Shown piece by piece: positions 16,715 through 39,473 of a stretch of DNA of 64,000 bases (positions are counted from its first letter, which is position 1; every line of letters starts with the position of its first letter). Under the pieces are notes generated by a model, which had not been told where the DNA came from, did no database searches, and worked only from the letters and a program-made list of their open reading frames with translations. The position numbers were made by a program, and so were the translations under genes. Location of the stretch: positions 310,001 through 374,000 of the forward strand of contig JAUXVU010000023.1 in NCBI GenBank assembly GCA_030680295.1. Direction: 5' to 3'. Origin of the DNA: Moraxellaceae bacterium (GTDB lineage: Bacteria; Pseudomonadota; Gammaproteobacteria; Pseudomonadales; Moraxellaceae).

Positions 16715-18055
16715 CTACTCCGCGGGTTTTTCTTCCGTATTCCAGCCCACTAGCAACCACGTAGCCACCACACCAATCAGCAGACCTATCCACGGCTCAA
16801 AAAAAGCTAATACCGTGCCAATTAACAACACGGTGCCACGTGAGGTGTTATCTCGCGGAATCGACATCGCAATATAAGCACAGGCAAAGCCGGTCAGCAC
16901 CAGCGTGAGTGATAACGCGATACCCAGCAGTGGTTTTAGGCCTGTCAACAAAGGCCGTAAGAAGAAAATAAAGGGCAGACCCATCAAGTAATAAGAGGCT
17001 AAACCGCTCTGCAGGTTAGGCATGGCTTCACGCCCTTGTTTCCAGCGCTGCACAATAATGACGTGGACACCGGTCCACAACGCACCTTGTGTTGGGAAAA
17101 ATGGCGCGAAAATGGCCATCACGCCATTACGGGCGGCGAGCGATAAATGTGAACGATTTGGGTTGATATCAATTGGGTCATCTGCGCGATGTGTTTGACC
17201 TTCACGGGTAATTTCGTTACCGGTAATTAAGTCGCCAAACAAAATAATATAAGTCACCATGGCCAATGGCAGGCTTTGCAAAAACATCTCGCGCGTTGGC
17301 CAGCCAATCACCCATGGCGCAGCCAAAGCCCATACCTCTGTGACCGGCGGAATTAAAAATCCCCATTGAATGTCATAACTAACCTCGCCCACCAATGGAC
17401 CAATCACTGCAGCGGCAATAAAGCCCGGCAATAAACCCAGTGCGCCTAACCACATAAACAACTTGTATTTAAGTTTTAGCCGCTGCAAAGGCAGCGAGAA
17501 GGTAAACAGCAAGCAAATGGCGCAAGCAATCGTGGTGGCAATTGGTTGCTGTAATAAAAAGCGCTCAGCATCATCGATAAAAACACGCTTTAAAGCAGCA
17601 ATAGCCGCACCTAAAATAATGCCCGCCTTGAGTGTACTTGGCAGCCAATGCATTAATCGTTTGCCCATGCCGGTAATGCCTAATATAAACACCAGCAATG
17701 CAAAATTAAGCGACAACGCTGTCATCACTTGAAAACGCTGCATGGGCTCGGCATAACCCGCAAGAACAAAGCCTAGTACCAGCGGCAATGCCGGTGTAAT
17801 CCAGCCCGGTGCATATGATTCACCGAACAAAATGACCGCCGAACCAATGAGCATGCTGTGCAGCATGGACATCGCCACGGCCTGCTCGAAGCTCAGACCA
17901 AAATAGGCCACCATAATGGGGACTAATGCCAGACCAGTTGCTGCCGACACCAGCATGCCTTGCATAAATTCAGGCCACAGCAGACGGGTATGGTAAAACG
18001 GTACACGACAGGTGAAAGGGCCCCAGCGCCAGCCCGGCAATTCTGATGCGGACAT
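16715..18055 (-). CDS. Multi-pass membrane protein, possible permease
   Basis: A 446-residue, very hydrophobic protein with about 12-14 likely membrane helices. I do not recognise a characterised transporter by name. The layout of glycine-rich helices (for example GLALVPIMVAYFGLSFEQAV and LKAGIILGAAIAALKRVF) is reminiscent of the uracil/xanthine permease and SulP fold. That is weak pattern resemblance, and the substrate is unknown. The start at 18055 (MSASELPGWRWG) is supported by AAGGAAAT just upstream; a longer in-frame reading to 18184 lacks a ribosome site. It leads a two-gene unit with the diguanylate cyclase. Confidence 0.65.
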   Translation of the reverse strand: MSASELPGWRWGPFTCRVPFYHTRLLWPEFMQGMLVSAATGLALVPIMVAYFGLSFEQAVAMSMLHSMLIGSAVILFGESYAPGWITPALPLVLGFVLAGYAEPMQRFQVMTALSLNFALLVFILGITGMGKRLMHWLPSTLKAGIILGAAIAALKRVFIDDAERFLLQQPIATTIACAICLLFTFSLPLQRLKLKYKLFMWLGALGLLPGFIAAAVIGPLVGEVSYDIQWGFLIPPVTEVWALAAPWVIGWPTREMFLQSLPLAMVTYIILFGDLITGNEITREGQTHRADDPIDINPNRSHLSLAARNGVMAIFAPFFPTQGALWTGVHVIIVQRWKQGREAMPNLQSGLASYYLMGLPFIFFLRPLLTGLKPLLGIALSLTLVLTGFACAYIAMSIPRDNTSRGTVLLIGTVLAFFEPWIGLLIGVVATWLLVGWNTEEKPAE

Positions 18056-18257
18056 ATTGATTTCCTTTATTTTTATTGTGTTTGCAGACTGCCATAGACC
18101 AAGACCAAATTGAAGCCTACGTGTCCTATATTCGTCTAACGTGACATTGATCAATGGCACATAATGATAAGAAATTGTCCCCAAATAACCTGTTTACACA
18201 CCCTCCTTACAGGCACATTGCGCTTGCCCACATATTTTCATTCTTTGGAGGGGCGAT

Positions 18258-19154
18258 ATGACTACTCAAACACAAACTGAAAACACCACAGTTCGTACAC
18301 CACTCGGCGCTCGTGTTGGCATTCCACCACGCCGTGTCAGCTTGAAATATGACACGACTACACCGGCTTATTGGTACGCCAATAACGCGCTGCAAACCCA
18401 CTTCTGGAGTGCTTTTTCTGCACTGTTGCCAGAAGGTGAGCAATTCTTTGTGCGCGCTGTTCGTCACTACCGTGATCAGATCCAAGACCCAGACCTGAAA
18501 GCAGCTATTGCTGGCTTTATTGGTCAAGAAGCACTGCACACTCAAGGTCACCAAGACTTTAATACGTTCTTAAATGATCGCAATTTGCCATTAGCGCAAA
18601 TTGATAAGCAACTAAAAGTGCTGTTGGAAACCGTAGACAAGGTTCACCCACGTCTGTGTTTAGCGGCCACCATTAGCTTGGAACACTTTACTGCACTACT
18701 TGGTGCTCAGTTACTGCGCGAAGAAGATCACCATGGCTCTATGACAGAACCTATGCGTGGCCTGTGGACTTGGCATGCTTTAGAAGAAACTGAACACAAA
18801 GCGGTAGCTTGGGATGTTTATCAGCAAACCGGTGGTGGTTATGTCATGCGTGCCGGCACTATGGTTCTGACCACCGTCATCTTAGGTGCTGTAATGACTT
18901 ATGCCACCGGCCGTTTATTGGCCGCTGATGGTCAGCTGCTTAATGTTCGTGAAAACGCCAAAGGCTTAAATGCTTTGTTTGGTCGTAAAGGTCGCCTGAC
19001 TCGTTTAGTGCCTAAGTTCTTGGACTTCTTCCGTCCTGACTTCCACCCTAACGACCATGACGATACTGCGTTGGTAGCAGAGTGGCGTGAAAAATTATTT
19101 GGTAAGGAAGGTGAGCTTAACAGCGCACTGAAGACTGCCAAGTCTTTACATTGA
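18258..19154 (+). CDS. PF10118 'metal-dependent hydrolase', possible di-iron protein
   Basis: A 298-residue protein of PF10118 / COG3687, annotated elsewhere as predicted metal-dependent hydrolase without a known reaction. Conserved blocks are FIGQEALHTQGH, ISLEHFTALLG, WHALEETEHKAVAWD and the C-terminal DFFRPDFHP. The acidic and His residues form the series Glu61, Glu91-x-x-His94, Glu142, Glu177-x-x-His180, with 30- and 35-residue spacings like those of ferritin-like di-iron oxidases and ribonucleotide reductase R2. A helical hairpin near 195-215 could be membrane-associated. A paralogue lies at 38625-39473. GGAGGGG precedes the ATG; a good terminator follows. Confidence 0.8.
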   Translation: MTTQTQTENTTVRTPLGARVGIPPRRVSLKYDTTTPAYWYANNALQTHFWSAFSALLPEGEQFFVRAVRHYRDQIQDPDLKAAIAGFIGQEALHTQGHQDFNTFLNDRNLPLAQIDKQLKVLLETVDKVHPRLCLAATISLEHFTALLGAQLLREEDHHGSMTEPMRGLWTWHALEETEHKAVAWDVYQQTGGGYVMRAGTMVLTTVILGAVMTYATGRLLAADGQLLNVRENAKGLNALFGRKGRLTRLVPKFLDFFRPDFHPNDHDDTALVAEWREKLFGKEGELNSALKTAKSLH

Positions 19155-38505: not shown

Positions 38506-38624
38506 CAAGCGCTCTATCGCCGAAACTACTCCGTCCATCTCCTGCCAGACCGTTACATTTGCCAATGTAATAATTGGCGCATAGACTCATCGGTGACTAT
38601 ACAGTTCTGCCGGAGTACACCCTT

Positions 38625-39473
38625 ATGAGTCGCTCAATGAAAGTCACACCCAGTGTGATCAGCATTAAACCTACACGCATGAACTTTGAGTTTGGCAATC
38701 AGGTGCCACACTACTGGTTAGACAACGACCCATTCTCTACTCACTTTATCAGTGTACTGTCGACCTTCTTTCCTGATGGCGAGCGCTTTTTTGTAGACTC
38801 TGTGCGTGCACTACGAGACAAAGTCAGCGACAAAGCACGGCAAAAAGAAATTTCAGGCTTTATTGGCCAAGAAGCCATGCATTCACTGGAGCACACCTCC
38901 ATGAACGACATGTTGGAAGAGCGTGGTTTACCTGCTAACAAGGCTGCAAAAACAGCATTAAGTTTGCTTAATTTCGGTCGTCGCTTTTTTGGTAAACGGC
39001 ATCAATTAGCAGCCACAGTTGCTCTTGAACACTTCACAGCAATTTTGGCCCATCGTGTTCTATCTGATACTGAACTCATGAATCAATTTCATGAAACCAT
39101 GCGCCCTATTTGGATGTGGCATGCCATTGAAGAAACCGAACACAAGGCGGTTGCTTGGGACTTATACCATGACGTTAAAGGCCACAGTTATGTTGAGCGT
39201 GTCGCCTTCATGATCATTGCTTCATCGTTTTTAGCGGTTGCAACTGCCATTAACCAACTCCGTTTTATGCATGCCGACAATCAACTATGGAATCTCAAAA
39301 CATGGGCCTATGGTTTAAATAAGCTCTTTGGTCGTCGCGGCGTCATTACCGGCCTAACCAGTGACTACTTGGACTTTTTCAAGCCAAGCTTCCACCCTTG
39401 GGACCATGAAAACAGCGCCCTAGTTGCTTACTGGCGAGAACAGTTAGAAACAGCCATGAACGAAGCGGCTTAA
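38625..39473 (+). CDS. PF10118 'metal-dependent hydrolase', second copy
   Basis: A 282-residue PF10118 / COG3687 protein, paralogous to the one at 18258-19154. Shared blocks include FIGQEAMHS, ALEHFTAIL, WHAIEETEHKAVAWD, LFGRRG and DFFKPSFHPWDH. The candidate metal ligands are Glu53, Glu83-x-x-His86, Glu135 and Glu170-x-x-His173, keeping the same 30-, 52- and 35-residue steps as the first copy within one residue. The start at 38625 (MSRSMKVTP) has GGAG 9 bases upstream; the longer reading begins at TTG. It is convergent with an alpha/beta hydrolase. The reaction is not known. Confidence 0.8.
   Translation: MSRSMKVTPSVISIKPTRMNFEFGNQVPHYWLDNDPFSTHFISVLSTFFPDGERFFVDSVRALRDKVSDKARQKEISGFIGQEAMHSLEHTSMNDMLEERGLPANKAAKTALSLLNFGRRFFGKRHQLAATVALEHFTAILAHRVLSDTELMNQFHETMRPIWMWHAIEETEHKAVAWDLYHDVKGHSYVERVAFMIIASSFLAVATAINQLRFMHADNQLWNLKTWAYGLNKLFGRRGVITGLTSDYLDFFKPSFHPWDHENSALVAYWREQLETAMNEAA

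Follow-up and report, generated by a model that had tools for sequence, protein, structure and literature searches.

The protein P0001, encoded in a 64,000-nucleotide stretch of Moraxellaceae DNA (the window), and the family PF10118 as a whole are probably ferritin-like di-iron proteins that activate O2, whose AurF-like set of ligands would be composed of Glu61, Glu91, His94, Glu142, His173, Glu177 and His180. The presence of a ferritin-like dimetal site in PF10118 is regarded as nearly certain and the function of the family as oxygenases or oxidases as highly likely, while its more specific assignment as C-H hydroxylases of hydrophobic substrates is put forward tentatively. The basis established directly is made up of the invariance of the residues, the predicted fold, a remote sequence relation to AurF and gene linkage; from these we infer iron, the use of O2, hydroxylation and the transfer of the reading to P0001, the gene of which stands without the oxidation operon described below.

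P0001 belongs to PF10118 by its Pfam match (E 1.1e-85, 287.7 bits against a gathering score of 33.2, residues 24-268). The name of this family, 'Predicted metal-dependent hydrolase', implies hydrolysis; a preliminary description of the DNA had suspected that this name may be wrong, and nothing in favour of hydrolysis by PF10118 was found. No NCBIfam family matched P0001 at E <= 1, and no relative was retrieved from the PDB sequences at E <= 10, with either P0001 or a PF10118 profile (A1) as the query. No paper on the function, fold or activity of PF10118 was found in the literature covered, most of it from outside subscription journals. The window harbors a second PF10118 copy, which displays the same set of invariant residues as P0001 (Table 1).

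Table 1. Features of the two PF10118 genes, in window coordinates; counts refer to the 56-member conservation set.
Feature	Positions	Strand	Remarks
PF10118 protein P0001, proposed ferritin-like di-iron oxygenase	18258..19154	+	ORF with ATG start, 298 aa
Glu61 codon, proposed metal ligand, helix A (AurF E101)	18438..18440	+	invariant, 56/56
Gln90 codon, proposed second sphere (AurF Asp135; Gln in CylC-type halogenases)	18525..18527	+	Q 52/56, E 4/56
Glu91-x2-His94-x3-His98, helix B; proposed ligands Glu91 and His94; His98 at the place of AurF His143	18528..18551	+	all three invariant, 56/56
Glu142 and His143 codons, helix C; proposed ligand Glu142 (AurF E196 by position), His143 an invariant neighbour	18681..18686	+	56/56
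His173-x2-Glu176-Glu177-x2-His180, helix D; proposed ligands His173, Glu177 and His180; Glu176 at the place of AurF Asp226	18774..18797	+	invariant, 56/56
Hydrophobic helix, residues 195-223	18840..18926	+	model and hydropathy
Second PF10118 copy	38574..39473	+	282 aa from ATG 38625, or 299 aa from TTG 38574

The preliminary description had drawn attention to Glu61, Glu91-x-x-His94, Glu142 and Glu177-x-x-His180 in a helical context, and its positions and steps of 30 and 35 proved to be right; the residues are located on four long predicted helices (44-72, 78-106, 131-154 and 164-179), with His180 one residue beyond the last. The pattern is weak when taken alone, because a loose version of it (E/D, ExxH, E/D, ExxH at rough spacings) is carried by 330 of 20,000 shuffles of P0001, that is 1.65%, and for this reason its use as proof of a di-iron site was dropped. 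It rises above chance because all six residues are invariant across the family. For this comparison, 150 PF10118 reading frames were collected from 116 loci and the window. After two duplicates of P0001 had been set aside, 149 sequences (P0001 plus 148 more) were aligned; removal of 93 redundant ones gave a conservation set of 56 sequences, P0001 included, which share less than 75% mutual identity, with identities to P0001 as low as 20%. In all 56 sequences, eleven residues do not vary, namely E61, E91, H94, H98, E142, H143, H173, E176, E177, H180 and D186, and six blind picks among the 46 Asp/Glu/His residues would all fall on these eleven columns with p = 4.9e-5.

The first ten of these residues are also fixed in three further, partly overlapping sets, in 41/41, 34/34 and 11/11 members (P0001 is present in three of the four sets, and the second window copy belongs to at least two); the six named beforehand thus do not vary freely in the family. 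The set of eleven includes proteins encoded on plasmids of Marinobacter, Mycobacterium, Mycolicibacterium, Rhodococcus, Nostoc and Acinetobacter, all of which keep the ten residues; D186 is replaced by N in the Nostoc member.

In the preliminary description, the ligands had been likened to those of ribonucleotide reductase R2 and methane monooxygenase (MMO), a set with two histidines. This part of it had to be given up, since the invariant His173, at i-4 to Glu177, makes the set one of the AurF type with 3 His and 4 Glu. His173, His98, His143 and Glu176 were absent from the earlier list and are as invariant as the six named, so that the nearest relative shifts from R2/MMO to AurF/CmlI. The metal ligands of AurF, which we take to be E101, E136, H139, E196, H223, E227 and H230, lie in the arrangement E101; E136-x2-H139-x3-H143; E196; H223-x3-E227-x2-H230, to be compared with E61; E91-x2-H94-x3-H98; E142; H173-x3-E177-x2-H180 in P0001. 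In profile alignments, E61, E91, H94, H173, E177 and H180 of P0001 are in register with their AurF-family counterparts. Glu61 is aligned to Glu118 of one AurF-family protein (L117) in one such alignment and lies one residue off in another, and the seventh-ligand position, His173 in all 56 sequences, is in register with the AurF-family His of HxxxExxH. The register of Glu142 to AurF E196 was not reproduced, as the profile alignment misplaces helix C; the assignment of this residue as a ligand therefore rests on its invariance, in the middle of helix C, and on helix order. By hhalign, profile A1 was matched to two AurF-family sets at E 0.0023 and 0.012 with low probabilities (12.6 and 3.5), which support the register only, and the 56-member profile gave E 0.0048 (the best of three AurF-family templates), 0.038 and 0.019; no useful alignment of PF10118 with the AurF family was obtained in global mode. 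PMC12101540 presents H139, H230 and E196 of AurF as ligands in a 3-His/4-carboxylate site, and the same kind of seven ligands is assigned, by prediction or model, to the AurF homologues DnfA and AzoC in PMC9478400 and PMC6783550.

The relation to AurF was also observed at the level of family profiles. Among 150 genomes of the phylum searched with PF11583 (AurF), 20 matches were obtained, three of which were PF10118 genes (1.7e-5, 1.6e-4 and 6.2e-4); these three score 19-24.7 bits, under the PF11583 gathering score of 29.6, and P0001 itself gave no match to PF11583 at E <= 1. When members of PF10118 were scanned, 13 families were listed for a 41-member set and 11 for a 34-member set, in which, PF10118 itself aside, AurF drew matches from the largest number of members, weakly, with 5/41 (best 5.1e-4) and 10/34 (best 9.2e-6). 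Other weak ferritin-like matches were found to the small chain of ribonucleotide reductase (2/41), rubrerythrin (1/41 and 4/34) and COQ7 (1/41), while the remaining ones seem to be due to chance (for example DUF599 4/41, SPG48 4/41 and Phe_tRNA-synt_N 2/41). Moreover, an intermediate protein (L123) is weakly matched by both profiles, AurF at 1.8e-6 and PF10118 at 0.0071. Because the bit scores, where given, fall under the AurF cut-off, PF10118 is not assigned to AurF and seems instead to form a sister branch with the same fold and the same ligand plan.

A ferritin-like bundle was predicted by AlphaFold for both P0001 (mean pLDDT 92.1, pTM 0.88) and the second window copy (mean pLDDT 91.7, pTM 0.89), the latter model being a repeat rather than an independent test, because the two alignments share most rows. 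Far from being placed apart, the residues are carried on the four helices of the bundle in both models, and the convergence of the proposed ligands within it is suggested by helix order, register and fold. With the P0001 model, the top Foldseek matches were CmlI, CmlI, AurF and R2 (best E 0.018, TM 0.42), and with the second copy R2, R2, CmlI and CmlI, with AurF tenth (best E 0.034); neither model gave a Foldseek match at E <= 0.001. By VIA-align, P0001 was closest to CmlI (Z 13.2, rmsd 4.3, 226 residues aligned), followed by R2 (12.4) and AurF (12.3), and the second copy to AurF (Z 13.5, rmsd 4.1, 227 aligned), R2 (13.2) and CmlI (13.2); these values amount to ties, and the top Z values of 13.2-13.5 are at a level possibly common for helical bundles. 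Where the preliminary description had a hydrophobic hairpin, a single long helix was modelled; its Kyte-Doolittle mean over 19 residues peaks at 1.58, and 126 of the 150 family frames reach 1.6 somewhere.

The gene surroundings of the family bear on its chemistry. A flavin/2Fe-2S reductase is encoded directly downstream of PF10118, on the same strand, in 6/6 plasmid loci from Rhodococcus (3), Embleya (2) and Dietzia (1); its Fer2 and flavin/NAD domains were confirmed by Pfam in three loci, the PDR/VanB assignment comes from annotation, and the match in Rhodococcus koreensis (L162) is divided between two frames. No annotation is carried by the L162 record or by four further plasmid stretches. 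With the actinobacterial reductases as queries, no reductase was found beside 24 dereplicated loci at E <= 1e-15, the one downstream of PF10118 in Fluviicoccus (L013, whose PF10118 protein is 49% identical to P0001) matching at 3.7e-13. None is annotated beside PF10118 in three mycobacterial plasmid loci, which contain between them an SDR, flavin oxidoreductases, hydrolases, fatty acid-CoA ligases and alcohol dehydrogenases. DnfB, a neighbour of the AurF homologue DnfA, is of the 2Fe-2S reductase type as well (PMC9478400). The AurF relationship, together with the adjacent reductases in some branches, lends support at the sequence level to the earlier proposal that the protein may be a di-iron oxidase or oxygenase. 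One mycobacterial plasmid locus includes an R2lox gene, and two PF10118 clusters contain a second protein with a weak match to AurF only (L138:10663-11586, 4.4e-4; L161:8639-9562, 3.3e-4), one of which is annotated as ferritin-like.

On contig C8 of the assembly that contains the window, FadL, PF10118, SDR, Abhydrolase_3, FMO, a 161-aa frame and an acyl-CoA ligase follow one another on one strand. The SDR is found directly downstream of PF10118 in 68/80 loci, an FMO within 3 kb downstream in 70/80, and both in 67/80. Since 45 of the 80 loci come from Acinetobacter, they were dereplicated to 24, in which the SDR and FMO are downstream in 16 and 17, and upstream in 1 and 1, respectively. The Baeyer-Villiger fingerprint FxGxxxHxxx[WY][PD] occurs in only 17/98 of the FMO-like neighbours, and so 'Baeyer-Villiger' is a family guess for most of them; at this place the neighbour in L147 reads FKGKIIHTGHWD and that in A. 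baylyi FKGEMFHSARWN.

In the genomes of the genus, linkage was counted over 68/68 PF10118 rows, 5/5 BtrH_N, 51/51 FMO and 115/118 AraC rows (three below the cut-off were dropped), with expectations that assume an even spread of genes over each genome. FMO-like genes lie within 3.5 kb of PF10118 in 9/51 cases (expected 1.82, P 1e-4), and within 1 kb in 1/51 (expected 0.72, not significant). All of the BtrH_N genes (5/5, expected 0.08) and 14/115 AraC/Arabinose_bd regulators (expected 1.67), the latter all on the opposite strand, are within 1 kb. FadL was dropped as a general trait of PF10118 loci, its linkage within 3.5 kb reaching P 0.07 at best: 4 cases against 1.6 expected over all 42 rows, and 1 case against 1.0 expected over the 24 strong rows, a count that leaves out 18 weak or partial ones. 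FadL-like frames lie about 3 kb from PF10118 at G078:C1:168020, G154:C45:10956 and G153:C3:99511, too few for significance.

Other arrangements were encountered as well. The order M24 peptidase, hydrolase-SDR fusion and PF10118 is common to Dietzia and the genome of the window. At L145:5935-8759, PF10118 is accompanied by a BtrH_N/DUF4872 protein (related, below the cut-off, to the acyltransferase DarH) and a thioesterase-like protein, and BtrH_N is also near PF10118 on one Acinetobacter plasmid and two mycobacterial plasmids. The Acinetobacter plasmid pIOMTU433 (L140) has PF10118 near a P450, a 2Fe-2S ferredoxin and an FAD oxidoreductase, and on plasmid pEH_gr13 (L158) it comes after an MSMEG_0569-type cluster with nitrilase and radical SAM genes. 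The 'metal-dependent hydrolase' beside a propane monooxygenase in PMC4428276 was kept out of the evidence, as its membership in PF10118 is not established. As a whole, the gene neighbours are more in keeping with an oxygenase than with a hydrolase, and agree with a hydrophobic substrate.

On these grounds, a reaction sequence may be proposed. The flavin/2Fe-2S reductase would reduce the di-iron site, which would then bind O2 and either introduce oxygen into, or remove hydrogen from, a hydrophobic substrate; the preferred reaction would be the hydroxylation of an unactivated C-H bond. The alcohol formed by PF10118 would be oxidised to a ketone by the SDR, converted by the FMO-type enzyme in a Baeyer-Villiger oxidation, cleaved as an ester by the alpha/beta hydrolase and activated with CoA. 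PF10118 is assigned to the first oxygenation because its neighbours in the full operon would supply all of the other steps.

The gene of P0001 is isolated, flanked by a 489-aa frame and a pirin gene. The former (16715-18184, minus strand) is rich in hydrophobic segments by eye and has no Pfam match at E <= 0.001. The SDR/FMO pair is missing beside P0001 and occurs in 0/5 of its nearest groups (six loci), so that the substrate of P0001 is extrapolated from the wider family. Accordingly, the earlier suggestion of a lipid or other hydrophobic substrate draws its support from the gene neighbours of the family, and none from those of P0001 itself. Four relatives with 54-74% identity to P0001 (L009, L010, L012 and L014) have a divergent AraC-type regulator beside the gene, the domains of which were checked for L009.

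The genome of the window (2.60 Mb), which its best hits place near Perlucidibaca, contains 13 PF10118 genes of full length together with one fragment; 6 to 14 matches each were counted in seven genomes of the genus, and 23/150 genomes of the phylum have any match. Near a contig end, at G000:C36:717965-718493, a fragment of PF10118 (profile 94-172) continues into one of an FMO-like gene (110-222), which is perhaps the remnant of a decayed operon. Among plasmid records with a PF10118 match, 57/78 are from Acinetobacter, and 10 of the 11 phage records with PF10118 are labelled as Acinetobacter phage.

Several other readings have to be weighed against hydroxylation. An AurF-like N-oxygenase, in which a di-iron peroxo species oxidises an amine or hydroxylamine instead of a C-H bond, would agree with the profile comparisons, where AurF and CmlI come nearest, and with the fold comparisons, where they are among the nearest; the acyltransferase-like BtrH_N neighbours could be read as amine-related. 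Apart from these neighbours and the nitrilase cluster on one Acinetobacter plasmid, however, no amine theme appears in the loci read; the second-sphere Asp135 of AurF is Gln in PF10118, and the sub-threshold PF11583 scores also count against this reading, which is judged improbable. A different O2 reaction of a ferritin-like di-iron site, such as desaturation, aldehyde deformylation, epoxidation or an R2-like oxidation, is unlikely but worth keeping in mind: R2, R2lox, acyl-ACP desaturase and aldehyde-deformylating oxygenase are all among the Foldseek matches listed, PF10118 has fatty acyl neighbours, and in R. fascians a limonene-epoxide-hydrolase-type gene comes after the reductase. To our knowledge, however, R2, R2lox, MMO hydroxylase, acyl-ACP desaturase and aldehyde-deformylating oxygenase possess no histidine equivalent to His173 (HxxxExxH), and the succession of SDR and FMO is better explained by an alcohol intermediate.

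It is very improbable that a dinuclear site in this ferritin-like bundle belongs to a true hydrolase or serves to store or carry metal, despite the family name and the cyclohydrolase 7vg4, which comes far down in the Foldseek lists (E 0.64-0.83, TM 0.19-0.30). No hydrolase is present in the Foldseek best 30 for P0001 or best 32 for the second copy, the adjacent flavin/2Fe-2S reductases would be hard to account for by hydrolysis, and the literature covered offers no PF10118 activity of either kind; hydrolase folds are likewise missing among the VIA matches listed (50 per model), and neither the Foldseek nor the VIA absence excludes anything. The reading with the least credit is a CylC-like di-iron halogenase, which can scarcely be credited even though PF10118 has QExxH in common with such enzymes. 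According to PMC12101540, Asp135 and Asp226 of AurF form hydrogen bonds to the ligand histidines and Asp135 becomes Gln in CylC-type halogenases, and ExxQExxH is listed in a 2026 preprint (PMC12871659) as holding a halogenase-specific Gln. The first Glu of ExxQExxH is absent from PF10118, in which residue 87 is F in 38, L in 17 and Y in 1 of the 56 sequences, and the halogenase HxxDExxH is replaced by HxxEExxH in 56/56; the SDR/FMO order again makes an alcohol the likelier intermediate. Gln90 in most members therefore means either that this Gln is not halogenase-specific or, less likely, that PF10118 carries out halogenation. If the preferred reading as a hydroxylase is true, the Gln described as specific to halogenases is not so.

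If this reading holds, many annotations as 'metal-dependent hydrolase' would be wrong in reaction class. A group of PF10118 is placed among the candidate proteases for lanthipeptides in PMC8960859, and it may be guessed that the misleading family name lies behind this candidacy. For enzymology, PF10118 would offer a site of the AurF type that has Gln and one additional His, in what is, judging from sequence, a probable setting of carbon oxidation, and would thus serve as a direct test of whether the ligand set or the second sphere decides between N-oxygenation, hydroxylation and halogenation. More speculatively, PF10118 is possibly a large unrecognised family of C-H-activating di-iron hydroxylases, distributed over Proteobacteria, Actinobacteria and Cyanobacteria, that employs the 3-His/4-Glu site of the N-oxygenase type for carbon chemistry and opens a Baeyer-Villiger-like degradation of hydrophobic compounds. 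Acinetobacter, Alcanivorax and Marinobacter are known for hydrocarbon and wax metabolism, and because 55/80 loci come from these three genera, a new class of di-iron hydroxylases would bear on the breakdown of hydrocarbons and lipids.

Compared with known systems, R2 of class I ribonucleotide reductase, R2lox and the MMO hydroxylase resemble P0001 in its predicted fold and in the six residues named at the outset; no nrdA or MMO partner is present among the annotated PF10118 neighbours read. The CylC/NocO-type di-iron halogenases share with PF10118 the motifs QExxH and HxxxExxH and an AurF-like ancestry (PMC12101540), and differ from it in ExxQExxH and in the Asp of HxxDExxH, a comparison made by published motifs and not by CylC sequences. 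The closest counterpart is AurF/CmlI (PF11583), which has the ferritin-like fold predicted for PF10118 and displays E, ExxHxxxH, E and HxxxExxH on four helices in the same order. Against this common plan, Asp135 and Asp226 of AurF are replaced by Gln90 and Glu176 in P0001, Thr197 gives way to the invariant His143 beside Glu142, and the gene neighbours of PF10118 point mostly to hydrophobic substrates.
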